This document shows, piece by piece, positions 5,035 through 34,816 of a stretch of 64,000 bases of DNA (position 1 is its first letter; each line of letters opens with the position of its first letter). The DNA lies in assembly GCF_006716085.1 (NCBI RefSeq), contig NZ_VFON01000001.1, positions 1,550,001-1,614,000 of the forward strand, in the 5' to 3' direction. A program made the position numbers and the translations under genes. The notes under the pieces were generated by a model. That model was not told the origin of the DNA. It made no database searches and worked only from the letters and a program-made list of their open reading frames with translations. Source of the stretch: Leucobacter komagatae (GTDB lineage Bacteria > Actinomycetota > Actinomycetes > Actinomycetales > Microbacteriaceae).

Positions 5035-6771
5035 CTAGGCGATGAGCCGCCTGATCCAGGAGGCGAGACCCTCAACCGCGAACACGATCACGAGCACGCA
5101 GAGCAGCAGGGCGAGGAGTTCGTGCTGGTTGATGCGCGCGGCACTCGACAGCATGTAGCCGATGCCGCCGCCGCCGACGATGCCGAGCACCGTCGCTGAG
5201 CGGATGTTGGTGTCGAGCAGGTAGAGCGTGTGCCCGACGAGCGCGGGTGTCGCCTGCGGAAACGTCGCCGCGGAAAAGACCTGCGTGCGCGTCGCGCCGA
5301 CTGCCTTGAGGGCACCCTCGGGGCCCCTGTCGACCTCCTCGATCGAGTCCGCGAACAGCTTGCCGAGCAGACCGACACCGCCGATGGCGAGCGCGAGTAC
5401 GGCGGCGCCGGGGCCGAGGCCGGTGAGAATGATGAAGAAGAGCGCGAGCAGCAGCTCCGGGAGCCCGCGGATCACGACGAGCACGAACCGTGAGGCGCCG
5501 CGCACCGCGGGATTCGGGGCGACGTTTCGCGCAGAAAACACGCCAAGGATCAGGGACCCGGCGAGCGCGAGGAGTGTCGCCGCGAAGGCGATCTGCACGG
5601 TCTCCGTGAGCGCGACCGCCGTCGCTTCCCACTTCTCGGGCGGCAGCGCCGGCGGCCAGAGCCGCGCCGCGGCGATGCCGAGATTCTTCCAGAAGTTCGC
5701 GAAGCTACTCTCCTGGGTCGCCGCAAGCGCGATCGAGACGCCGATGAGGGTCGCGGTGCCCCAGACGAGCGCCGAAGATTTCAGTCGGTCCGCTGTCCAC
5801 GGCACCCGACCGGCACCCGCCGCGCGGCCAAGCGAGCGACCTTTCGCCGCAGACTTCCCGGAGGGGCCAGCGTCTTGCCCTGCACCTGCCTCGGCGCCGG
5901 GCAGCGCGCGCACGAAACGGTGCGCGAGCGTGCGGCGCGCGACGGGCGCGCCAAGCAGGAAACGGCGGATGAGCGCCGAGACGATCTCGAAGGCGACGCA
6001 GAGCACGAAGATGATGATTGCGAACGGCAGCGCCTCGCGATAGTTCAGGGTCTGCATCGCGATGCTGAGTTGCTGGCCGAGCCCCGCGACGCCGACGAAC
6101 CCGAGGATCACGGACACCCGGAGGTTGATGTCTGCGCGGTGCAGCACGATCGCGATGAAGGCCGGGAGTACCTGCGGCCAAACCGCTCCCCAGAACTCCT
6201 GCGATTTCGTGGCCCCCGCCGCGCGCAGCGCAAGCCGGGGCCCGTCGGGTACCTGCTCGATCGCGTCGGCGGTGAGTTTGCTAATCATGCCGACCGAGTG
6301 GATCCCGAGCGCGAGGACGCCCGCGAGCGCGCCCTGGCCAATCACCATCGCAAAGATCATCGCCATGATTGCGTCGGGAGCCGCGCGGGTGGCAACCCCG
6401 AGGAACCTCCCGAGCGCGCCGCCCCAGCGGGTCGGCGTCGTATTGCGCGCCGCGAGGTACGCGACCGGGATCGAGATGATCGCTGCCATCGCTGTGCCGC
6501 AGAACACGATGGCGAGTGTGAGCGCCGAAAGCCAGAGGATCTCGGGGATGGAAGGCCACACGAACGGTACCGCCCGTGCGAGGAAGCTGCCCGCGTAGTC
6601 GACGCCTCGGGCGATCTGCTGCCACGACAGCCCAACGCCAGACAGCGACCACAGCCCGACCGCGAGGAGGGCGAGGAGCAGGGCCCCGGCGGTGAGCGCG
6701 TTCCGCGATGGGAGCGGGAGCTTCGCGCCCGTCCGAGCGGCCGGGCGGACGGGGGTGATGATCGCGGTCAC
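5035..6771 (-). CDS. phnE: PhnE-type ABC permease, two fused permease domains
   Basis: The 578-residue protein contains two complete PhnE-like permease units in one chain; ordinary PhnE proteins are about 260-280 residues. Unit 1 (about 30-275) has the cytoplasmic EAA-type loop EQVPDGPRLALRAAGATK. Unit 2 (about 330-578) has EEVDRGPEGALKAVGATR, followed by the matching DTNIRSATVLGIVGGGG, which parallels DINLRVSVILGFVGVAG in unit 1. A hydrophilic linker (about 285-325) separates them. The GTG start overlaps the phnC stop codon (GTGA), so translation is coupled. It forms the channel of a phosphonate or organophosphate importer with PhnC and PhnD. The substrate is inferred from family only. Confidence 0.9.
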   Translation of the reverse strand: MTAIITPVRPAARTGAKLPLPSRNALTAGALLLALLAVGLWSLSGVGLSWQQIARGVDYAGSFLARAVPFVWPSIPEILWLSALTLAIVFCGTAMAAIISIPVAYLAARNTTPTRWGGALGRFLGVATRAAPDAIMAMIFAMVIGQGALAGVLALGIHSVGMISKLTADAIEQVPDGPRLALRAAGATKSQEFWGAVWPQVLPAFIAIVLHRADINLRVSVILGFVGVAGLGQQLSIAMQTLNYREALPFAIIIFVLCVAFEIVSALIRRFLLGAPVARRTLAHRFVRALPGAEAGAGQDAGPSGKSAAKGRSLGRAAGAGRVPWTADRLKSSALVWGTATLIGVSIALAATQESSFANFWKNLGIAAARLWPPALPPEKWEATAVALTETVQIAFAATLLALAGSLILGVFSARNVAPNPAVRGASRFVLVVIRGLPELLLALFFIILTGLGPGAAVLALAIGGVGLLGKLFADSIEEVDRGPEGALKAVGATRTQVFSAATFPQATPALVGHTLYLLDTNIRSATVLGIVGGGGIGYMLSSAARINQHELLALLLCVLVIVFAVEGLASWIRRLIA

Positions 6772-7592
6772 GCCGCCGCCCCGCTGAGCTCGGGCTGGGG
6801 AGCGCGCTGGGTCTCCCCGGTGCTGTCGGCGCGCTTTCCGGCGGCACCGCGCTTGTAGATCGCCATGACCGACGCCTCGTCGAGGTCACGCGCTGGGGCG
6901 TCGAGCACGACCCTTCCAGCCTGAAGCCCGACGATACGGCTCCCCCACGCGAGCGCGAGGTCGACCTGGTGCAGACTGCACACGACCGTGAGGTGCCGCC
7001 GCTCGGCGAGCTCCTGAATGAGCGCCATGATCTGCTGTGACGATTCGGGGTCGAGCGAGGCGACCGGCTCGTCAGCGAGCAAGATCTCGGGCTCCTGCAT
7101 GAGGGCGCGGGCGATCGCGACGCGCTGCTGCTGCCCGCCCGAGAGCGTGTCGGCGCGCTGGAACGCACGCTCCTCGAGCCCGACCTCGGCGAGCAGTTCG
7201 GCGGCTCGGATGCGGAGCGCTTTGGGGTAGGCGAGCAGCCCGAGGCGCGGGCCGCGCAACTCCGAGAGCGCCCCCGTGAGCACGTTCTCGAGCACCGTTC
7301 TCGGCCCGACGAGCTCGAACTGCTGGAAGACGAAGCCGATCCTGCTGCGCAGCTGCCTGAGCGAGCGCCCGCGGGCGGCGTCGACGTGCACGCCGAGCAC
7401 TGAAACGCTCCCCGAGTCGGCCCGTTCGAGCCCGTTGAGGTGGCGGAGGAGCGTCGACTTCCCCGACCCCGAAAGGCCAAGAAGAACCGTCTGCTCCCCC
7501 GGAGCGATGTCGAGGGTGACGTCGTCGAGCGCGACGGTCGCGCCGTAGCGCTTCGTGAGGGTATCGAGCTGGATGGCGGCGGGATGATGCAT
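6768..7592 (-). CDS. phnC: PhnC-type ABC importer ATPase
   Basis: A 274-residue ABC ATPase with Walker [12 protein letters not shown], the signature [15 protein letters not shown] and Walker B ILLADEPVASLD, followed by the switch histidine in VCSLHQVDLAL. The Q-loop sits in FVFQQFELVGPRTVLENV, which resembles PhnC (NLVxRxxVLxNV). It powers the transporter made with PhnE and PhnD. The ATG start has GGAG about 10 nt upstream. The stop overlaps the phnE start. A hairpin sits in the 75-bp gap between phnD and phnC and may lower ATPase expression relative to the binding protein. Confidence 0.93.
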   Translation of the reverse strand: MHHPAAIQLDTLTKRYGATVALDDVTLDIAPGEQTVLLGLSGSGKSTLLRHLNGLERADSGSVSVLGVHVDAARGRSLRQLRSRIGFVFQQFELVGPRTVLENVLTGALSELRGPRLGLLAYPKALRIRAAELLAEVGLEERAFQRADTLSGGQQQRVAIARALMQEPEILLADEPVASLDPESSQQIMALIQELAERRHLTVVCSLHQVDLALAWGSRIVGLQAGRVVLDAPARDLDEASVMAIYKRGAAGKRADSTGETQRAPQPELSGAAA

Positions 7593-7630
7593 GAGGGTCA
7601 GACTCCAGGAGCTACGCGGCGGGGTGGGGC

Positions 7631-7658
7631 GGGGTTCGGCCGATGACGACCGAACCCC
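7631..7658 (-). terminator. Hairpin between phnD and phnC (attenuator candidate)
   Basis: GGGGTTCGG (7631-7639) and CCGAACCCC (7650-7658) form a 9-bp perfect stem with a 10-nt loop. In a polycistronic transcript it would protect or terminate RNA after the binding-protein gene. Confidence 0.5.
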
Positions 7659-7667
7659 GAGGGGGTG

Positions 7668-8609
7668 TTACGGCTGGCACTGCGCCGCGCCGGTCTGCTC
7701 ACAGACCTTGCGGACGCTGTCGTAGTACGAGTCCTCGACCGGGACGAGCTCGTAGAAGAACGCCTTGAACGCGTCGGTGACCGCGATGCCCTCGGCCTCG
7801 ATGTCTGCGAGCGTCAGGTTCTTCATGAGGTCCTGCAGCTCCGTCTGCGTGTCGGCGGGAAGCTTCTTCGACATCACGATTGGCGCGCCGGGCACGGTCA
7901 CGCGGTTGATGACCTCAAGGTCGCCCTCGGCGAACAGGCCATCGGCGATGCCCGTCGTCTCGACGACGGCGTCCTCGGCGAACCCGGCCTCGCACTCGAC
8001 GCCCTGCGCGGTCTTCTGCGCGGATGCGTCGTGCCCGCCCGCCATGACCGGCGTGATGTCCTTTTCAGGGTCGATGCCGGCCGCGAGCAGCTCGGCGCTC
8101 GGGTAGAGGTAACCCGAGGTCGAACCCGGGTCGACGAAGCACACTTTGTGGCCCTTCAGGTCGGCGATCGAGGCGATGTCTGAGCCCTTCGGCACGACGG
8201 TGAGCGACTCGTAGCCTGGCTCTTCGCCCTCCTTCGTGACGGTCACGCCGAGCGGCTCGAGCTCAGCACCGCCGTTCGTCGCCGCAACGTAGGTGAAGCC
8301 AGAGAAGCTACCGATATCGATGCGGCCCGCAATCGAGGCCTCGACGAGCGCTGCGTAGTCGGTCGACTGGATGAGCTCAACCTTCTTCCCGGTTTTTGCC
8401 GCGATGTAGTCGACGAGCGGCTGGAACGTGTTCTCGACTGACTGCTGGTCGGGGACCATGCCCATGACGAGCGTGTCAGCGTCTTTCGCGAACCCCTCGG
8501 ATGCGCTCGCGCCGTCGCCTGCGGGCCCTGCCGAGCAGGCGGCGAGGGTGCCCATGAGCGTGATGCCTGCGACGAGCGCGAGCCCGCGGGTGAGTGTGTT
8601 CTTCTTCAC
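7668..8609 (-). CDS. phnD: PhnD-type phosphonate/phosphate-ester binding lipoprotein
   Basis: The 313-residue protein has a lipoprotein signal peptide ending in TLAACSAG, so the mature form is lipid-anchored at Cys. It continues as a PhnD/SsuA-like periplasmic-binding fold: TLVMGMVPDQQSVENTFQPL near the N-terminus, then IGSFSGFTYV, and VCFVDPGSTSGYLYPSAEL, the anion-binding STSG segment typical of PhnD. The GTG start lies 10 bp after the HAD gene's stop, and its ribosome site GAAAGG overlaps that stop codon, so the two are probably translationally coupled. It delivers substrate to PhnE/PhnC. Whether it binds phosphonate, phosphite or another phosphate ester cannot be told. Confidence 0.92.
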   Translation of the reverse strand: MKKNTLTRGLALVAGITLMGTLAACSAGPAGDGASASEGFAKDADTLVMGMVPDQQSVENTFQPLVDYIAAKTGKKVELIQSTDYAALVEASIAGRIDIGSFSGFTYVAATNGGAELEPLGVTVTKEGEEPGYESLTVVPKGSDIASIADLKGHKVCFVDPGSTSGYLYPSAELLAAGIDPEKDITPVMAGGHDASAQKTAQGVECEAGFAEDAVVETTGIADGLFAEGDLEVINRVTVPGAPIVMSKKLPADTQTELQDLMKNLTLADIEAEGIAVTDAFKAFFYELVPVEDSYYDSVRKVCEQTGAAQCQP

Positions 8610-8619
8610 GGTGTGCCTT

Positions 8620-9354
8620 TCAAAGCGAGTGAGTGTGAATCGGTGTGAGTCGGATGGAAGCTGTGAGCGGCTGGCGCGGCGTGAGCGCGGCGATCCAGTC
8701 GGGAGTAACGCCCGCGAAGCTCGCGATCGTCACGTCGGCGAGGAGATCGATCTCGGGCCGCGGCTCCCCCACACGCACGACGGTGCAGCCGGCGGATCGT
8801 GCGGAGCGGATGCCGACCTCGGAATCCTCGAATGCGACGCAGTTCGCCGGCGCGACGCCGAGCGCTCGGGCAGCACGCGCGTACGGCTCGGGGTCGGGCT
8901 TTGTCTTCGGCACGTCGTCGGCGGTGACGACGGTGTCGAAGCTGCCGAGGCCAGCGAGGCTGTCAACCGCCGAGACCCAGGTTCGCGTCGAGCTCGTCAC
9001 GAGCCCGATCGGCGTCCCGGCGACCCGCAGCCGGTGCAGGGTCTCCTCAGCGCCGGCGAGCCAGCGCAGGCTTCCGGCGAAGGCAGCGATCGAACGCTCC
9101 TCAAGCAAGCGGGCCACCTCCGCGGGCGTGCCAGCGTGGCCGTACGTCTCGACCAGTCGGCGACCGGCGTCGTCAACGGCGACCCCTTCGAACGCCGCGA
9201 CGAGCTCTTCGGGGGCTTCCCCGGTGCTCGCGGTGAGCGCGGCCCGGATCGCCTCAAGCCAGCTCCGCTCGCTGTCAACGAGCGTGCCGTCAAGGTCGAA
9301 CAGCACGGCGCCGAGCGCGGTGCCCGAATGGGGTGAGGTTGGCTGCTGAATCAC
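8620..9354 (-). CDS. HAD-superfamily hydrolase, beta-phosphoglucomutase/phosphatase-like
   Basis: About 244 residues from a probable GTG start (begins VIQQPTSPHSG). The HAD motifs are complete: motif I VLFDLDGTLVDSE with the nucleophilic Asp, motif II LVTSSTR, motif III Lys in KTKPDPEPY, and motif IV AFEDSEVGIRSA. The helical cap between motifs I and II is of the C1 type, as in phosphoglycolate phosphatase, beta-phosphoglucomutase and phosphonatase. It is the first gene of the HAD-phnD-phnC-phnE run. It may release phosphate from the imported compound, but the lysine expected for phosphonatase Schiff-base chemistry is not evident. The start is the least certain part, because no clear ribosome site precedes it. 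Confidence 0.85.
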   Translation of the reverse strand: MIQQPTSPHSGTALGAVLFDLDGTLVDSERSWLEAIRAALTASTGEAPEELVAAFEGVAVDDAGRRLVETYGHAGTPAEVARLLEERSIAAFAGSLRWLAGAEETLHRLRVAGTPIGLVTSSTRTWVSAVDSLAGLGSFDTVVTADDVPKTKPDPEPYARAARALGVAPANCVAFEDSEVGIRSARSAGCTVVRVGEPRPEIDLLADVTIASFAGVTPDWIAALTPRQPLTASIRLTPIHTHSL

Positions 9355-9378
9355 CTGATCATTACCCCGTGACCAGGT
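9353..9378. promoter_or_regulatory. Inverted repeat, candidate GntR operator
   Basis: ACCTGATCA (9353-9361) and TGACCAGGT (9370-9378) are inverted copies with one mismatch and an 8-bp spacer. The site overlaps the proposed GTG start of the HAD gene and lies in the 142-bp divergent region shared with the GntR gene. It is a plausible binding site for the adjacent regulator. Confidence 0.4.
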
Positions 9379-9484
9379 ATGCAGTTCGCAACAAGACGGT
9401 GAACGACACCTGAACACTGGGTGCTTAGGCGCCGCAGGGCGGGACAGCTGTGAACGGCTGTCCACCGGCGCCGATTTCCGGGCG

Positions 9485-9490
9485 TACGCT
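9485..9490 (+). promoter_or_regulatory. -10 hexamer of leaderless GntR gene
   Basis: TACGCT ends 6 nt before the ATG at 9497 and there is no Shine-Dalgarno sequence, so transcription would begin at or beside the start codon. No convincing -35 is seen. Confidence 0.45.
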
Positions 9491-9496
9491 GGCAGC

Positions 9497-10252
9497 ATGA
9501 CGGCCGATTCCACACGCTCGCACACGGCGATTATGCGCGACCTTCTCGCGCGCATCGTTGACGGCGAGTTCGCCCCGGGAACGACGCTGCCGTCGGAATC
9601 GAAGCTGAGCCAGCACTACGGCGCCGCGCGCGGCACAGTGCGCAACGCGCTCGCCGCGCTCGAGGGCCGCGGCCTCGTCGCCCCCGTGCAGGGGTCGGGT
9701 TGGGTCGTCCGCTCCAGCAGACAGAACCAGTCGTTCGCCGAGCTGCGCTCGTTCGCGCAGTGGGCGCGCAGCAAGGGGATGACTCCCGGAGGCCTCGTGC
9801 GGCTCGCGGAGTTCGGCGAGGCGTCTCAGGGCGAGGCGCGCAGCCTGCGCGTGGCTCCGAGCTCCCGCGTCATCCGGGTGACGCGCACGCGCTCGCTCGA
9901 CGGCCGCACCGTCATGCTTGAACGCACCTGCTACCCCGAGTGGATCGCCGACAAGGTCGCGAGCATCCCCGACGATGAAGCGTCCGTCGTCGAGACACTG
10001 CGCACGCATTTTGGCGTCGACACCGCCCACGCCGAGCACTCGATCGACGCGATCCCCGCTTCGAGTGCCGACGCCGAGCTCCTCGGGATCCGCAGGTCAA
10101 GCCCGCTCCTCCGGGTTAGGCGCGTGAGCTTCACGCGCGGTGGCGCCCCCATCGAGTTCGGCGAAGACAGGTACCTGCCCGACACCGTAACGTTTCAGGT
10201 GGCGACCTCAAGCGACAGCAACGCGCTGAACCGCGCCGAGTTTCTCCGGTAG
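9497..10252 (+). CDS. GntR-family regulator with UTRA domain (PhnF/HutC subfamily)
   Basis: The 251-residue protein has an N-terminal winged helix-turn-helix (about 10-75) with the GntR signature FAPGTTLPSESKLSQHYGAA, then RGTVRNALAALEGRGLV and the wing QGSGWVV. A UTRA ligand-binding domain follows (about 95-240: VIRVTRTRSLDGRTVMLERT, then PLLRVRRVSF and PIEFGEDRYLPD). This architecture is that of PhnF, a regulator of phosphonate or phosphate-ester uptake. It is transcribed away from the HAD-phnDCE operon and is the obvious candidate to control it through the inverted repeat in the shared region. The effector is unknown. Confidence 0.88.
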   Translation: MTADSTRSHTAIMRDLLARIVDGEFAPGTTLPSESKLSQHYGAARGTVRNALAALEGRGLVAPVQGSGWVVRSSRQNQSFAELRSFAQWARSKGMTPGGLVRLAEFGEASQGEARSLRVAPSSRVIRVTRTRSLDGRTVMLERTCYPEWIADKVASIPDDEASVVETLRTHFGVDTAHAEHSIDAIPASSADAELLGIRRSSPLLRVRRVSFTRGGAPIEFGEDRYLPDTVTFQVATSSDSNALNRAEFLR

Positions 10253-10309
10253 CCGGCCGGGTTCGCCCGCCCATCGCGGCGTCACCGGTAGACTCCCGCC
10301 GAGAGAAAG

Positions 10310-11062
10310 GTGCCGCCCATCGAAGCCCCAGACGCGTTCTCGCTGTACGTCGATACCCACCTCGCCCGCGCGGGCGATGCGACCCGATCCACGGCGCTCG
10401 CCTGGTTCCGAACAGGCGCCCCGCATGAGGAACTCAACGGGGTGCTCTACGCGACCGCGGCAGCACTGGGGGATGCGGTCGCTGAATTTGGTAGGACGCC
10501 GGCGCTGTGGCATTCGTGGCCCGAGCGGCCCGAATTCGACGTCGAGGCGCAGCTCCGCGCGCGAGGCTTTGAGTTCGTCGAGGAGGAGCCCGTCATGACG
10601 CTCGCCCTGGGCAGCGGGTCCGGGTCCCCCTCCACGGCGCGACCGGGGCCGGCCACCGTTCGCCCCGTCGAAACTGAGCGCGACCTCGCCGCCTGGGAGG
10701 AAATCTGGACGGGCGAGGCCCCAAACCCGGTAACGCTTCGCGCCCTCGCGTCGGCGGGGCTCGGCACTGACCGCACAGTCCACCACCTCCTCGCGGAGGT
10801 CGATGGCGTCGCCGTCGGGTGCGGCGCGGCCGTCGTCGCCGGGAGGGCCCTCGCTGTCGAACACATCGTGACCGCTGCGTCGCACCGCAGGCGCGGTATC
10901 GGCAGCCAGCTGGCCGAAGCAGCGCTCGCAGTCGGGCGCAGCCATGGTGTGCGTCACGCGATCCTCACCGCGTCACCCGACGGCGCCGGGATCTACGAGC
11001 GCCTCGGATTCGAGGCACGCGAACCGGTTCGCAGGTTCATCGCCCCGGCCGCGACCGGCTAG
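10310..11062 (+). CDS. GNAT-family N-acetyltransferase
   Basis: A 250-residue protein whose C-terminal half (about 115-250) is a GNAT fold. The acetyl-CoA pyrophosphate-binding loop is HRRRGIGSQLAEAAL, preceded by ALAVEHIVTAASH and followed by GVRHAILTASPDGAGIYERLGF, the usual late strand and helix. The first 100 residues (HLARAGDATRSTALAWFRTG and onward) form a second, weaker domain of the kind seen in two-domain GNATs. The substrate is unknown. The start is uncertain: the GTG at 10310 directly abuts the purine run GAGAGAAAG, which leaves no normal spacing. A TAGACT hexamer about 18 nt upstream could be its -10 box. Confidence 0.75.
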   Translation: MPPIEAPDAFSLYVDTHLARAGDATRSTALAWFRTGAPHEELNGVLYATAAALGDAVAEFGRTPALWHSWPERPEFDVEAQLRARGFEFVEEEPVMTLALGSGSGSPSTARPGPATVRPVETERDLAAWEEIWTGEAPNPVTLRALASAGLGTDRTVHHLLAEVDGVAVGCGAAVVAGRALAVEHIVTAASHRRRGIGSQLAEAALAVGRSHGVRHAILTASPDGAGIYERLGFEAREPVRRFIAPAATG

Positions 11063-11096
11063 CTAGCCAGCGCCACTGCGTTCTCGCGTCTCCGTG

Positions 11097-11309
11097 TCAC
11101 TGCCTGAGCGTCTGGCCGTTCTCGGCGAGCGCCGCCTCGAGGATTCGCACTGCCTTCGGGCCCACCCCGTGCAACGACAGCAGTTCCGCTCGCGAAAGCC
11201 CGCTCACCTCGGCGAGCGTCGATATCCCTGCCAGCAGGAGCGCCGAGGTCGCCGGCCGACCGATCCGTGGCAGGTCCCCAATCTGCTCTGGCACATCACG
11301 TGTAGACAT
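11097..11309 (-). CDS. Small helix-hairpin-helix protein
   Basis: A 70-residue protein with two consecutive helix-hairpin-helix-like units: LPRIGRPATSALLLAGISTL, and SRAELLSLHGVGPKAVRIL with the GVG hairpin. Such small proteins bind DNA non-specifically or act as accessory domains. It starts 6 bp after the Lrp-type regulator's stop codon on the same strand, so the two are probably co-transcribed. The function is not known. Confidence 0.75.
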   Translation of the reverse strand: MSTRDVPEQIGDLPRIGRPATSALLLAGISTLAEVSGLSRAELLSLHGVGPKAVRILEAALAENGQTLRQ

Positions 11310-11315
11310 GCGTGC

Positions 11316-11876
11316 CTAGGCTTCGTCGCCCGCGCGCAGCTCCGCGAGAATCTGGTCGAGCCTGTGCTGCTCCACGCCCGCGGCGCTCTCGGAGAAGAAC
11401 GCGAGGCGGGTCTCGGTGAACTCGAGGTCATCCCGCGCCCAGACGTACTCGGCAATGATGCGCTTCAGGTGGTCGAAGCCCTTGGTACGGATGAGCAGAA
11501 TGAGGTCGGAGGACCCCGTCACGACCGACGTCTCTTCGACCTCGGGGATCGCCTGCAGCGCAGCCACAACGTCATCGCGGCTCGCGCCGGTACGAATGAC
11601 GACCGAGAGGTAGGTGGTGAGCGTGTAGCCGAGCGCGCGCCAATCGATGTCAACGCGGTAGCCGCGGATGACGCCCTCCTGCTTCATCTGGGCCATGCGC
11701 TCGGAGACCGCAGGGGCAGTGAGCCCGACGGCGTCTGCCAAGCTCTTGAGCGTGGCGCGCGCGTTGTCGTGCAGCATCGACAACAGCTTGATGTCTGTCT
11801 CGTCGAGCGCGACGATAGGCGGGTCGTTCGTCAGCCCGTCGGCGAGGCTGCCAAAGGTCGACCTCTTCGCGTTCAT
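11316..11876 (-). CDS. Lrp/AsnC-family transcriptional regulator
   Basis: The 186-residue protein starts at the ATG at 11876 with GGGGAG upstream. It has an N-terminal helix-turn-helix (LDETDIKLLSMLHDNARATL, then SLADAVGLTAPAVSERMAQM) and a C-terminal RAM/AsnC ligand domain (TYLSVVIRTGAS, then VEETSVVTGSSDLILLIRTK). A short tail (ESAAGVEQHRLDQILAELRA) extends beyond the usual end. The family senses amino acids. It sits next to a NhaC-type transporter and a PLP enzyme whose shared promoter region carries two palindromes, so regulation of those genes is likely but inferred. Confidence 0.88.
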   Translation of the reverse strand: MNAKRSTFGSLADGLTNDPPIVALDETDIKLLSMLHDNARATLKSLADAVGLTAPAVSERMAQMKQEGVIRGYRVDIDWRALGYTLTTYLSVVIRTGASRDDVVAALQAIPEVEETSVVTGSSDLILLIRTKGFDHLKRIIAEYVWARDDLEFTETRLAFFSESAAGVEQHRLDQILAELRAGDEA

Positions 11877-12009
11877 GTCGTGCCGACTCCCCTTCGCATT
11901 TCGGTGAGATGTGCGTCTTCGCCGCTCACTGCATTGTACAAAGCGCGAGGGGCACCCGCTGCGCGACGCGCGCCGGTGCCCCTCGCGGTGACCACGGATC
12001 CGGATCCGG

Positions 12010-29573: not shown

Positions 29574-32222
29574 CTACCTGTGTGTCGAGTACTCGCCGAT
29601 CTCTTCGCGCTCGAGCGCACCAGACTTGCGGCGAATGTTTCGCAGGTGCGTCTCGACGGTGCGCACTGACAGGCTGAGCGCGCTCGCGATCGCGGGGTTG
29701 TTCATGCCCTCGGCGACGAGGTCGATGATCTCCCGCTCGCGCTGGGTGAACCCGAGGCTCGACTCGACCTGCGTGAGCGCGACCTCTGTCGCGGGATCCT
29801 CCGAGGCCATGAGCGCCGCGACCTCCTCGCGCACCTCGGTCGCCCGATCCTCATCGCCCGCCTCACGGTGCAGCCTCGCCGCGGCGAGGAAGTACTTCAG
29901 CGCAGAGTCGTTCGCGTGCTCACGTCGCAGCCACCTCGCGGCCTCGACGAGCCCATCCGCGTCCCTGTTGTGGTGTGCGATCCTGGCGTCGAGGTAGGCA
30001 AGAAACACCGTGCCCCCGAGGTATTCAAGCCGCGACCGCTCGGCGACTGCCGCGTCGATGTCGAAATCGAGCAGCATCGCGAGCATCGATGACCCGGCTG
30101 CCGAGAATTCGTAGCCGCGCCCGCTCAGCTCAGCGGCGAGCGCGCGGTAGGCCGCGCTCGTCTCTTCAGCCGTGCTGTCGATCTCGGTGACCATCGCGGC
30201 AGGGAAGCCGAGCGCGCCCATGGGCACCGCGTCGCTCCTCCCCTTGTACGACTCGCCGCGCTCGATGAGGGTACCGACGGAGCTGATTCGGCCGCTGCGG
30301 CGGGCCGCGATCGCGAGCGCGTTCATGAGCGCGCGGTCGGGGCCGAACAGCATGTTCGCCGCCTGGAACTGGCCGCTTGCGGCGATGCTGCCCGCGGCCG
30401 TCGCGTCGGCGTAGCGGCTCATCGTGAGCAGCGCCATCACCGCGACATACGCCTGCGCGACGACCGCCGAGCGGTCGAACCGTTCGCGGGCGACAGAGAG
30501 CTGCGACGACGCCCACTCGAGCGCCTCCTGCGGGCGCCCGGCAGTGACGAGCGCGAGCCCGCGCAGCGGAGCTGCGAAGCGCGGCACCCAGCCGGTGTCA
30601 GGGAGCTTCGCGAACTGCTCGAGGGCGGTCGCCGGGCGCCCGCCAAGCGCGTGCATCGCGATGAGGATCAGCCCACCGACGTCGCCCTCCATTCCAGGCA
30701 GCTCGGAGATCTCCTCGATGCGGGTGAGCATCTCGTCGGTGATTTCGATCTGTTCGGCGCGGAACCCGATCGTGAGCGCCTCGACCGCACCGGGGTGGCC
30801 GAGGTCTGAGCTTCCCTGCAGCGTCTCCTCGATAGTTTCGAGCGGCCGCTGCTGGGTCACGAGCCAGCGCGCGTGCAGGTAACGGAAGTACAGCGCCTCG
30901 ATGGGCTCGGCGGCGTCGAGTGGGGTCCCGTCGACGATTGCCTCGATCTGGCCCTCCGGCGAGTCGCCGGTGAGGCGAAGCTCGAGCGCCGCGATGCCGG
31001 TGCCGGGCGTGGGCCGCTCAGACCAGTTCGCCCAGGTACGGGCAAGGTCTGCCTCGAAGCGGTCGCGGAATGCGCGAGCGACGAGCGGAACCTCGGGGTT
31101 CGGGATGACGTCGGCAAACTGGCGCGGAACCTGCGGCTGCTCGGCGATCTCCATGCCGAACTCTGGGCCCAGCACCTCTTCGATCTGGTGACGAAGTCGC
31201 ACACCCCGCACAGACGGCGCCCGGTGCCTGAAGTAGTCACTGATGCCGGGTGGGTTGACGGTCACGCGAGGCCCGGTGCCCGCGGAGAAGAGCCGCACGA
31301 GCCCGCGGCCCTCGAGCCGCTCGATCTCCTCCTGGCCGACGAGCGTCGTCGCCTGGTCGACAGACAACGGACCGGTCGCGACGAGCATCTCAAGCGCCTC
31401 GCGCGTCTCTTCGGAATACCGGTAGAGGAGCGACTCGAACGCGCCCTCAAGCTCGTCCGACCACAGATCGGCGCCGTCGTGCCAGACGTTGCCCTGCTTG
31501 CGAATCTTCGCACGCCGCTTGGCGCTGTCAGCGAAGGCGATCGCGTAGCCGGGGAGCCCGCCAGACTTCATGTGGATCCGGCCGCTCAGCGAGGGCGCGA
31601 CCTGGTCTCCGAGCCGTTCCTCAAGCAGGTCGTGGATCGCGTCGAGGCGAAGCTCCTCGAGCGTGAGCTTCACGACGGGGTGAGCCATCCGAATGAGCAG
31701 GCGCTCGTCGGGCTCGATGTCGCTGCGCGACTCGGAAGTCCCGACGATCGGCACGCCCGTCGCCTTGTGGATCTGCTCGAGCAGTACCCACGACGCCTCG
31801 TCAAGGAGGTCGATGTCGTCGACGAGCACGACGGCCGGGCCCTCGCTCAAGAGCTCTGTGATGGCACGGGGAAGCTCGATGGCGAGCTCGGCGTCGGGGC
31901 GTCGGTTCGCCGGGAGGTTTGGGAGGGCGACTTTGAAGGCCTCAAGCGGGCGCGCGTGCTCAATGCCGCGGAGCTGCACGATCGCGAGCCCGATCGCGCG
32001 GAGCGCGTCGGCCGACCGCTTCAATAGCTCGGTGCGGCCAGACCAGTGCTGGCCGATGACAGACACGGACGTGCCGTCGATCACATATCGGACTATACGC
32101 TGGACCTCGGTGTTTCGAGCGTACACAGGCTCCCCCTCTTGCTGCCAGGGCGGTAGCCCCCGCTGGATGAGGGACATCGGGCGCCCGTCCCGTTCGTTCA
32201 GTACAGGCAGGATATCGCGCAT
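29574..32222 (-). CDS. Large LuxR-family regulator with AAA/STAND-like ATPase region
   Basis: The 882-residue protein resembles MalT/LAL regulators. The N-terminal nucleotide-binding region (about 35-240) has a P-loop variant, VIGQHWSGRTELLKRS, with Arg where Lys is expected, and a normal Walker B, VVLVDDIDLLD. A long helical middle (about 400-800) of repeat-like segments follows, then a C-terminal LuxR helix-turn-helix (TQREREIIDLVAEGMNNPAI, then LSVRTVETHLRNIRRK). Its ATG overlaps the stop of the upstream surface-protein gene (TGATG), so it is translated as the last gene of the TasA-like/signal peptidase/anchored-protein locus and probably controls it. Confidence 0.85.
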   Translation of the reverse strand: MRDILPVLNERDGRPMSLIQRGLPPWQQEGEPVYARNTEVQRIVRYVIDGTSVSVIGQHWSGRTELLKRSADALRAIGLAIVQLRGIEHARPLEAFKVALPNLPANRRPDAELAIELPRAITELLSEGPAVVLVDDIDLLDEASWVLLEQIHKATGVPIVGTSESRSDIEPDERLLIRMAHPVVKLTLEELRLDAIHDLLEERLGDQVAPSLSGRIHMKSGGLPGYAIAFADSAKRRAKIRKQGNVWHDGADLWSDELEGAFESLLYRYSEETREALEMLVATGPLSVDQATTLVGQEEIERLEGRGLVRLFSAGTGPRVTVNPPGISDYFRHRAPSVRGVRLRHQIEEVLGPEFGMEIAEQPQVPRQFADVIPNPEVPLVARAFRDRFEADLARTWANWSERPTPGTGIAALELRLTGDSPEGQIEAIVDGTPLDAAEPIEALYFRYLHARWLVTQQRPLETIEETLQGSSDLGHPGAVEALTIGFRAEQIEITDEMLTRIEEISELPGMEGDVGGLILIAMHALGGRPATALEQFAKLPDTGWVPRFAAPLRGLALVTAGRPQEALEWASSQLSVARERFDRSAVVAQAYVAVMALLTMSRYADATAAGSIAASGQFQAANMLFGPDRALMNALAIAARRSGRISSVGTLIERGESYKGRSDAVPMGALGFPAAMVTEIDSTAEETSAAYRALAAELSGRGYEFSAAGSSMLAMLLDFDIDAAVAERSRLEYLGGTVFLAYLDARIAHHNRDADGLVEAARWLRREHANDSALKYFLAAARLHREAGDEDRATEVREEVAALMASEDPATEVALTQVESSLGFTQREREIIDLVAEGMNNPAIASALSLSVRTVETHLRNIRRKSGALEREEIGEYSTHR

Positions 32223-32896
32223 CAGCTCTCCTTCGCAGTAGGTGATCGCCGGGGGTGGCGAAGCAGTGAGGCGGCGCCCGCGGTGATGAGCCCCGCCGCG
32301 CCGAGCAGCAGCGCGACCTGCGGGGCGCCGGTGGCGCCGGTACCTGCCAGGTCGGGGCCGACAGGGGTGACCGGGCGCACTGGGGTGCCGCGCTCAATCC
32401 CCGTGAACGCGAGGTCGACGACCGACACCGCTGTGCCCTCGTCGGCAACAGCCTCGGGGTAGCTCACCCGCACGCACAGGTCAATAGTCGAACCGGCGGT
32501 GATCGTGCCCTGCGGCAGCGGCATCGCCGCAGCAAGCGTTATTGCGCCTGCCTCCGCCATGCGCGCAACCGTGCAATCCGTCGTGCGGAGGGATGAGAGG
32601 AGCAGCGCGTCAGCCCCGTCGCCAGGGCCGTCTTCGCCTACGACGACGGGCGTGAGCGCTAGCTCAAGATCTGCGCCAGAGCCGTTGTGCACCTGGGCCG
32701 TGGCGAGCGCCTCCTCGCCGGGGTGCAGCGTCACGTTGAAGAGCTGCCTCGCCGGTGTGACCGTGAGGGCCCCAGTGCTCTCACCGCCGGCGGGCTGCGT
32801 CGCGAGCGCGGGACTGGGGGCCGACACCGAGACCGCAGCCGCGGTAACGGCGAAGCCCCCCGCGATGAGTGTCGCGAGGAGTCGCCGCGCCGTCAT
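32222..32896 (-). CDS. Secreted LAxTG-anchored surface protein
   Basis: A 224-residue protein with an N-terminal signal peptide (LLATLIAGGFAVTAAAVSVS) ending near ALA. A beta-rich domain of about 130 residues follows (GALTVTPARQLFNVTLHPGE, then TAQVHNGSGADLELALTP), in the style of domains that dock on fibres. The C-terminus has PDLAGTGA, a hydrophobic helix and RHPRRSP, a class E-like sortase signal. The start overlaps the signal peptidase stop (ATGA), and its stop overlaps the LuxR start. It may anchor or cap the TasA-like protein made upstream; that role is inferred. Confidence 0.75.
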   Translation of the reverse strand: MTARRLLATLIAGGFAVTAAAVSVSAPSPALATQPAGGESTGALTVTPARQLFNVTLHPGEEALATAQVHNGSGADLELALTPVVVGEDGPGDGADALLLSSLRTTDCTVARMAEAGAITLAAAMPLPQGTITAGSTIDLCVRVSYPEAVADEGTAVSVVDLAFTGIERGTPVRPVTPVGPDLAGTGATGAPQVALLLGAAGLITAGAASLLRHPRRSPTAKES

Positions 32897-33471
32897 CGTG
32901 ACTGCCCTCCGGAGACGAGCCCCGCGAGTACTCGCTCGGCCTCCGTCGCGTCATCAGCGCGCTCCGCCGAGGCCTCGGCGGGGCCAGCCGTCGCCGAACG
33001 GTCCTTGCGCTTGCTCGGTACGAAGAGTGCGATGAGGAACACGGCGCCGACAATGAGGCGCACGGCCCAGAGCTCGGACATGCGGAAGAGGGTCGCCCAG
33101 GTTCCCTGCAGCGCGAAGCGCGGGGTGCCGAGCACCTGCTCCTGTGTCACGGGGAGCGGGTCGCTGACCTCGTTGCCGTCGCCCTTGAGGATGGCGCCGT
33201 CTTCGGTGACGGTCTCGACGCGGTGGACGTACTGGTCAGACGTGTCGCCTGCCGAGAACGAGACGACAACGGGCTTGCCGGGCGTCTGCAGCTCGTCGCC
33301 CTTGGGGGCCTGCACGACGAGCACGTCACCGACCTCGTAGGTGGGCTGCATGGAGACGCCCGTCACGGTCATGTAGTAGTCGCCGCTGACTGTCGCCCAG
33401 AGAAACGGGACGGCGAGCGCCACCAGGGCAATGCTCGAGAGCGTTCGCAGGGTCAGAATGATGCTTCGCAT
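32893..33471 (-). CDS. ER-type signal peptidase I, SipW-like
   Basis: A 192-residue membrane peptidase starting at an ATG with GGAGG 5 nt upstream. An N-terminal helix (LRTLSSIALVALAVPFLWA) precedes the catalytic Ser in MTVTGVSMQPTYEVGDVLVV. The second catalytic residue is His in DQYVHRVETV, where classical bacterial enzymes have Lys, so it belongs to the ER/archaeal/SipW type. The motif ILKGDGNEVSDPLPV follows, and a second helix ends the protein. In Bacillus, SipW cleaves TasA and its relatives. Here the TasA-like gene lies just upstream and an anchored surface protein overlaps downstream. Confidence 0.88.
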   Translation of the reverse strand: MRSIILTLRTLSSIALVALAVPFLWATVSGDYYMTVTGVSMQPTYEVGDVLVVQAPKGDELQTPGKPVVVSFSAGDTSDQYVHRVETVTEDGAILKGDGNEVSDPLPVTQEQVLGTPRFALQGTWATLFRMSELWAVRLIVGAVFLIALFVPSKRKDRSATAGPAEASAERADDATEAERVLAGLVSGGQSR

Positions 33472-33536
33472 GTCGTCCTCCGGGGTAGGCGGCCCGCGTG
33501 GGGCCGAAAAGTTTGGGGTGTGCGCGGAATGCGCGC

Positions 33537-33583
33537 GCGGCGCCGAGCAGTAGAGATCCGGGGTTGGGACTGCTCGGCGCCGC
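33537..33583 (-). terminator. Hairpin between TasA-like gene and signal peptidase gene
   Basis: GCGGCGCCGAGCAG (33537-33550) and CTGCTCGGCGCCGC (33570-33583) form a perfect 14-bp stem with a 19-nt loop. In minus-strand transcripts it would partly terminate transcription after the fibre-protein gene. Confidence 0.65.
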
Positions 33584-33604
33584 TAGTTTTGATTCAGCGC
33601 AGTG

Positions 33605-34162
33605 TTAGTTGCTCTTGGCGATGCTGTTGAACAGGTAGTCGGCCGTGACCTTCGAGTCGTCGAGGTCAGCCGCGTTGAACGCTGCGGCGTCGTCTACGAA
33701 GACGTCGACGCGTACCTTGGCGCTCTGGCCCGGTGCGAGCTCGAACGAGTCGCTACCGTCGAGGCGCATGTCGGCGAGCTTGCCGGTGCCGACGAGCGTG
33801 CCGCCGTCAACCGCGACTCGGGTGTCGAGTGCGCCTGCGAGCTTCGCGCCGTTCGCGCCGCCCGGCTGAACCTGCGAGGCGAGCGTCACGGTGAGCGTCG
33901 CGTTCGTCGAGGTGTTGGTCGCCGTGTAGTACCCGGTCACCGCTTCGCCGTCCATCTGGCCGGTGAAGGTGTTGGTCATCGGAGCGCCGGTGACGAGGAG
34001 CTCGCCGTCTGCTGAGGTGTCCGAGATGTCGGTGCTGAACACGTTGTCGAAGATCGTGCTGTTCTGGGTAACGAGTGCGCCACCGACGGTGATGCCTGCG
34101 ATGAGGAGGAGCGAACCGCCAGCGATCGCGATCTTCTTCTTGGTGGATGTCTGCGTAGCCAT
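33605..34162 (-). CDS. SipW-dependent TasA/CalY-like surface protein
   Basis: A 185-residue secreted protein starting at an ATG with GAAAGG upstream. The N-terminus (STKKKIAIAGGSLLLIAGIT, then VGGALVTQNSTIFDNVFS) is the alternate-type signal peptide recognised by SipW-like peptidases. The mature part is a beta-rich fold rich in Thr, Asp, Gly and Ala (TNTFTGQMDGEAVTGYYTAT, TNATLTVTLASQV, FELAPGQSAKVRVDVFVDD), like TasA or camelysin. Such proteins form biofilm fibres or act as surface proteases. Only the signal peptide and overall pattern support this; sequence similarity is modest. It heads the four-gene locus. Confidence 0.78.
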   Translation of the reverse strand: MATQTSTKKKIAIAGGSLLLIAGITVGGALVTQNSTIFDNVFSTDISDTSADGELLVTGAPMTNTFTGQMDGEAVTGYYTATNTSTNATLTVTLASQVQPGGANGAKLAGALDTRVAVDGGTLVGTGKLADMRLDGSDSFELAPGQSAKVRVDVFVDDAAAFNAADLDDSKVTADYLFNSIAKSN

Positions 34163-34353
34163 GGTGACTTACCTTTCTCAGGGGGTATGTGGGTGAGAAC
34201 CTGTGCGAGTCTGTGTGTTGATCTTGCTTGCTTGCCTCGAATACGAGTCAACCGGCTCAGGGCGGTGCCCCCAGGAGTTCGAGCAAGATCTGCGGGGTCG
34301 CGCACCGAGATCTACGCGTGACGAAAAAGCGCGTACGCAGGCAAACCCTGGGT

Positions 34354-34366: not shown

Positions 34367-34816
34367 ATGGCTGTATGCGTCGTAACCACTCTTGAACCCT
34401 TCGGCCCGGCAACGGCAATCACGCTCTCCGAGGAGCAGATGCTCGAACTCGGCGGCGGGAAGCGCGCGCCCGTAGTGGTGGAGATCGCGGGCAGGCGTGC
34501 GAGACTGCGCCTCGCGAGCATGGGCGGCGACTACGTCATCGGCATTTCCAAGGCGAACCGCGCGCTCCTCGGCGTCGAGGTCGGCGACACGGTCACCGCG
34601 AGCATCACGGTCGATAGTGCGGAGCGCACGGTGGAGGTGCCCGACGCGCTCGCGAGCGCACTAGCGCGCCATCCTGGCGCGCGCGAGGCGTTCGATGCGC
34701 TCTCGTTCACGGCGCGGAAAGAGCACGCCGCCGCCGTGTCGGGTGCGGTGCGCGATGAGACGAAGGATCGCCGGATCGCCGCTATCGTCGAAGCGGTCCG
34801 GGCACAGCTCGGCTAA
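34367..34816 (+). CDS. DUF1905/YdeI-family protein
   Basis: A 149-residue soluble protein. The first half is a DUF1905-like beta barrel (APVVVEIAGRRARLRLASMG, YVIGISKANRALLGVEVGDT). The second half is the OmdA/YdeI helical domain (VPDALASALARHPGAREAFD, then LSFTARKEHAAAVSGAVRDE, ending KDRRIAAIVEAV). Members are often called bacteriocin-protection proteins, but the biochemical role is unclear. Its TAA stop overlaps the TAG stop of the convergent MFS gene by 4 bp. It appears leaderless. Confidence 0.85.
   Translation: MAVCVVTTLEPFGPATAITLSEEQMLELGGGKRAPVVVEIAGRRARLRLASMGGDYVIGISKANRALLGVEVGDTVTASITVDSAERTVEVPDALASALARHPGAREAFDALSFTARKEHAAAVSGAVRDETKDRRIAAIVEAVRAQLG

Follow-up and report, generated by a model that had tools for sequence, protein, structure and literature searches.

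A probable TasA/SipW-like surface-fibre regulon in the actinobacterium Leucobacter komagatae

The closest described counterparts of the locus considered here, a four-gene operon of Leucobacter komagatae, are the tapA-sipW-tasA operon of Bacillus subtilis and the sipW-tasA/calY/capP genes of Bacillus cereus, with which it has in common, as far as the cited portions of these reports go, a TasA-like fold (here in a structural model), an adjacent SipW-type peptidase and an additional surface protein (PMC10151520, PMC9674648, PMC13082335). For B. subtilis, near-identical mature N-termini (AFHDI and AFNDI), used as donor strand, are described for the initiator TapA and for TasA itself (PMC10151520), and an archaeal pilus (7ueg) has been described as TasA-related (PMC9674648). 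The sipW-bsaABCRSD operon of Clostridium perfringens, in the passages cited, combines SipW and a filament-forming secreted protein with its own regulators, BsaR and BsaS, and has a predicted terminator with read-through past the subunit gene (PMC7395162). TasA-type donor-strand fibres have so far been worked out in Bacillus and one archaeon; if actinobacteria have a conserved version, with a regulator, a defined promoter element and a propeller partner of its own, the kind would be broadened to a large wall-bearing group. The operon lies in a stretch of 64,000 nucleotides (the window; contig NZ_VFON01000001.1, positions 1,550,001 to 1,614,000), a sequence-only reading of which had described a four-gene SipW-like/TasA-like surface-fibre locus with a dedicated large LuxR ATPase.

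Read as open reading frames (ORFs), the four genes are all present on the minus strand, in the order gene 1, 2, 3, 4:

33605..34162, minus strand: gene 1, TasA-like secreted protein of 185 residues with a probable alternate-type signal peptide and the N-terminal motif NSTIFDNVF, putative fibre subunit
32893..33471, minus strand: gene 2, SipW/ER-type (endoplasmic reticulum-type) signal peptidase I, 192 residues
32222..32896, minus strand: gene 3, surface protein of 224 residues with an ordinary signal peptide, a beta-sandwich and a C-terminal LAGTG followed by a hydrophobic segment and a basic tail
29574..32222, minus strand: gene 4, large LuxR-type regulator of 882 residues (850 from a GTG at 32126), with a P-loop-like N-terminal domain (Arg for Lys) and a C-terminal LuxR helix-turn-helix (HTH)
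33537..33583, minus strand: hairpin just past gene 1 and ahead of gene 2, perhaps an attenuator or a stabiliser of the mRNA

The overlaps that had been read at the junctions of genes 2 and 3 (ATGA) and 3 and 4 (TGATG) are as claimed. Among 60 genomes searched, 37 of Leucobacter (own genome, G000, included) and 23 of other genera, genes 1 and 3 were found in seven, and the same seven contain strong orthologues of genes 2 and 4. The operon is thus present in 7 of 37 Leucobacter genomes and in none of the 23 others. Absence of the gene order from other strains had been named as a refuting result, but the order does recur in six further Leucobacter genomes (G003, G006, G012, G013, G015 and G033), so that it is more than chance. 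The flanks are alike in G000, G003 and G006; G012 and G013 share a different set, and G015 and G033 each have their own. The alignment of the homologues from G033, G012 and G013 begins only at residue 27-29, which leaves the start of gene 4 uncertain; the alternative start, GTG at 32126 with AGGGGGAG directly before it, would give the 850-residue form.

Based on these and the following results, we consider it probable that the locus belongs to an actinobacterial surface-fibre regulon working like Bacillus TasA/SipW, in which a subunit, a peptidase, an attached surface protein and RCC1-type partners are expressed from LuxR-activated boxes. At the level of sequence, this reading draws on the gene order, the catalytic motif of the peptidase, a common promoter element and the co-occurrence of the RCC1-type genes; the TasA-like fold comes from modelling alone; and from these we infer fibre formation, donor-strand linkage, the LuxR-type protein as box-binding activator, the RCC1-type proteins as fibre caps or cargo, and wall anchoring.

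The predicted structure of protein 1 is a TasA-like jelly roll, for which Foldseek returned TasA as the best match and the archaeal TasA-like pilus (7ueg), comparable by fold alone, as the second; with modest confidence, the model thus bears out the fold that had been proposed. By sequence, in contrast to the Bacillus subunits, no family is matched: the camelysin profile PF12389 found nothing in the whole genome, while the B. subtilis control did match, and nothing for protein 1 in a Pfam scan, which is why we call the protein TasA-like and not a camelysin member. Its N-terminus is unstructured in the model, yet highly conserved among the aligned relatives, and a SipW-type gene adjoins gene 1 in all seven loci. 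The peptidase claim held as well: Ser, His (in place of Lys) and the GDGN motif are kept in the gene 2 products of all seven loci, and His is likewise found in the other SipW-like ORFs scored. The gene 2 product reaches 48.2 bits (1e-12) with TIGR02228, slightly below the cut-off of 51.85, and does not reach that of the Bacillus SipW model NF046067 (23.8 bits against 190). SipW-type genes are common in the family, where TIGR02228 is matched in 143 of 199 genomes.

Genes 1 and 2 are separated by 133 nucleotides containing a strong stem-loop (-58.9 kcal/mol, z -5.2; none of 200 shuffles equally low). Matching hairpins, scored within the first 100 nucleotides after gene 1, have z below -3 in six of the seven loci, the exception being G012 (z -1.0). 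No T-run follows the hairpin in the window, and it is therefore not a standard terminator; it may act by attenuation or message protection and so give the subunit in excess.

For protein 3, the sequence-only reading had inferred an LAxTG-anchored surface protein. The C-terminus does have an LxxTG-like motif, a hydrophobic segment and a basic tail, but the LAxTG form itself varies: nine aligned relatives show LAGTG, LAGSG, LVGTG, LVSTG, LPGTG, LSGTG and LPLTG. Six sortase matches were found in the genome. The beta-sandwich model of protein 3 is weak, no profile similarity to protein 1 was detectable, and the protein has an ordinary-looking signal peptide and no NSTI-N-F motif. That protein 3 is a TapA equivalent is not supported, as it lacks a SipW-type N-terminus in common with the subunit and no relation to protein 1 could be detected; unlike TapA, it is LxxTG-like and not SipW-type.

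The promoter links the operon to other genes. Alignment of the seven regions upstream of gene 1 revealed CGYAG boxes ahead of TTGACTCG:

34333..34337, minus strand: promoter box 1, CGTAC in the window and CGTAG in some relatives
34312..34316, minus strand: promoter box 2, CGTAG
34290..34294, minus strand: promoter box 3, CGCAG
34246..34251, minus strand: TTGACT, at a constant 38 nucleotides from box 3, probably core promoter
34236..34247, minus strand: palindrome CTCG-N4-CGAG, overlapping TTGACT, with one arm varied in G033

The same box layout precedes genes for RCC1-type proteins, both in the four relatives where these stand next to gene 4 and in the genome of the window, where they are not linked to it. 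Cast as a rule (CGYAG-N17-CGYAG-N38-TTGACT, at most one mismatch), the element gave 16 rows in 857 kb of overlapping loci, compared to an average of 0.1 in block shuffles; these are 12 distinct sites, seven before gene 1 (all seven loci), five before RCC1-type genes and none elsewhere. As the rule was derived from some of the sites counted, the better test comes from G006 and G003, whose RCC1-type genes were added to the set only afterwards; there both boxes are exact, the offset is 38 in both, and the hexamer has zero and two mismatches. Over all eight RCC1-type promoters, the offset is 38 in each, both boxes are exact in seven, and the hexamer mismatches are 0, 0, 1, 3, 0, 2, 0 and 0. Several promoters carry an extra box 21 nucleotides upstream, which is degenerate in the window (box 1). 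The start codon of the RCC1-type genes follows 28-32 nucleotides after the start of the hexamer, too near for a -35 element, so that TTGACT more likely represents the -10 region. The palindrome occurs at the gene-1 promoters only, not at the RCC1-type ones, and is perhaps a second operator.

The eight genes behind these promoters encode large, probably surface-located propeller proteins of 796-930 residues, of which three were scanned and all three have RCC1 repeats (PF00415, PF25390) above cut-off. The genomes in which their N-terminal part was found are precisely the seven with the operon. The genes adjoin gene 4 in G015, G033, G012 and G013, in differing surroundings, and lie tens of kb from the operon in the other three; L. 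komagatae itself has two copies (contig position 1540554 and about 1506312-1508591), at distances of some 41 and 76 kb from the promoter of gene 1 and outside the window. Their N-termini, for example GAISTSNSTIRSNEF and GAVTTDNSTVHGNRF, appear to be of the SipW type and resemble that of protein 1, GALVTANSTIFDNVF. This parallels the likeness between TapA and TasA in the cited account of B. subtilis, and by this analogy the fibre may be initiated or capped by the RCC1-type proteins. The cited portions of the Bacillus reports mention no such RCC1-type partners. Near each RCC1-type gene of the genome, a large secreted protein is encoded (L097:5579-8275 and L096:11043-13730) that resembles the neighbours of a gene 4 paralogue described below.

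The sequence-only reading had called the product of gene 4 a dedicated LuxR ATPase. Its C-terminal LuxR HTH is clear (GerE, 47 bits against a cut-off of 23.5), but the ATPase label is unproven, since the P-loop domain is weak (AAA_16, 19.5 bits against 32.6) and its Walker A motif, GQHWSGRT, carries Arg in place of the expected Lys. In a set of 44 distinct full-length relatives, the residue is Arg in 34 (28 by script pattern, the remainder read by eye), Lys in five, Gly in three and ambiguous in two. The replacement of Lys by Arg (SGRT or SGRS), seen in the majority of the large LuxR group, is unusual and possibly a functional departure. MalT/LAL-type regulators and IniR are alike in size (about 850-900 residues), P-loop-like N-terminus and C-terminal LuxR HTH; the gene 4 product differs from them in its Walker A Arg, and scores 27.4 bits against a cut-off of 750 with the IniR model NF038181 and 25.4 against 537 with MalT, both as matches of the HTH end. 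Nor does 'dedicated' hold strictly. The genome encodes a 59% identical paralogue (L068, G000:C1:3180000-3199900, 9327-11981; between or beside two secreted Ig-repeat (Big_6) proteins of 877-891 residues) and at least two more distant LuxR-type proteins, and copies 67-68% identical exist in another genus, g72; no SipW-like gene lies within about 8 kb of the 59% paralogue or of the g72 copies. Such proteins beyond the operon speak against a strictly dedicated regulator.

An operon-borne regulator is also not unprecedented, as the cited part of the C. perfringens report places a two-component system within sipW-bsaABCRSD (PMC7395162). The two systems differ in that one large LuxR-type protein takes this place here, and, as reported there, in the stability of the BsaA polymer; Bacillus, in the cited accounts, uses SinR instead of an in-operon LuxR-type protein. 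Closer at hand, the NCBIfam models TIGR04089 and TIGR04088 describe SipW-dependent actinobacterial proteins that occur in other SipW clusters of Leucobacter and its family, some near a large LuxR gene, but neither protein 1 nor the RCC1 protein tested matches these models. Two such Leucobacter clusters (L072 and L046) lie near a large LuxR gene and encode proteins of the alternate-type signal peptide family, TIGR04089 having been tested on one. A further cluster in genus g79 (L148, 3688-12250) lines up a LuxR-type gene, genes for four secreted proteins that look SipW-type, one for an anchored protein and SipW, a building plan like that of the Leucobacter operon with unrelated sequences. Since other actinobacterial SipW clusters with nearby large LuxR genes exist, the operon is not a new kind.

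Taken together, the operon probably builds surface protein fibres like those of Bacillus, and operon and RCC1-type genes probably form a regulon whose products are made together, with the operon's LuxR protein, most simply, as controller. The central region of the regulator would sense a signal, and the protein would probably bind the tandem CGYAG boxes, spaced 21-22 bp, whereupon the operon and the RCC1-type genes would be transcribed. The peptidase would cut exported protein 1 and the RCC1 proteins, and the freed N-terminus of protein 1 would probably serve as the donor strand linking subunits. Protein 3, attached to wall or membrane, would probably hold the fibre, and the hairpin probably lets the subunit exceed the other products.

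One may ask whether protein 1, TasA-like as it is, stays monomeric, or works as an enzyme, as an inhibitor or as an adhesin of the matrix, in an operon that is a surface-display module without fibres. The TasA monomer is described, in the portion cited, as stable until triggered (PMC10151520), a common fold does not show polymerisation, and two relatives of protein 1 are named camelysin-like metallo-endopeptidase in UniRef. However, no metalloprotease family was matched in the family profile scans covering protein 1, and a conserved unstructured N-terminus with a motif common to the RCC1-type proteins is what donor-strand assembly needs, so that we regard this explanation as quite improbable. 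It is also unlikely, in our judgement, that some other regulator, be it a second large LuxR-type protein or a sigma factor, binds the boxes and that gene 4 controls something else. In favour of this, the genome encodes paralogues, and no box was found in the neighbourhood of the 59% one. Against it, the genomes with boxes are the same seven that have gene-4 orthologues. The module, at one mismatch or fewer, is found in none of the other Leucobacter SipW loci examined, and 19 other loci, 360 kb in all, contain only two box-like sites, which lie about 330 nucleotides before the g72 copies, the closest LuxR relatives in another genus; with two mismatches each, where shuffles of that set give 0.45 such matches, these sites are only suggestive.

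That operon and RCC1-type genes merely have a promoter type in common and travel together by ancestry, their products not interacting, is a possibility with some weight that we nevertheless lean against. On a GlnE tree of 27 genomes, the operon label is clustered (12 of 500 shuffles were as low), and in three genomes the RCC1-type genes are tens of kb away. Yet this tree requires the label to change four times or more, and the seven genomes are thus not one clade; the genes adjoin gene 4 in four genomes with differing surroundings, and the N-termini resemble that of protein 1. Building on the regulon reading, we put forward tentatively, as a picture rather doubtful in its entirety, donor-strand TasA-like fibres outside Bacillota and archaea, in Leucobacter and perhaps other Microbacteriaceae: an RCC1-propeller with a donor N-terminus would start or cap the fibre as binding tip, gene 1 would supply the shaft and the wall-attached beta-sandwich of gene 3 the acceptor base, and a LuxR protein with a degenerate (Arg) P-loop would, through tandem 21-22 bp boxes, fire the tip, shaft and base genes together with that of the peptidase. 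A conserved actinobacterial system would offer a concrete regulon whose parts (the subunit, the peptidase, the surface protein and the putative tip) could each be deleted singly, and the box sequence makes the role of the regulator testable.

Two minor observations concern neighbouring and related genes. LuxR-type genes split into two ORFs each are found in L138 (G178), 8970-11722, and L084 (G009), 5604-8191. In the window, a divergent gene for a 149-residue protein (34367-34816, plus strand) begins 30 nucleotides away from promoter box 1 and may be controlled from the same region.

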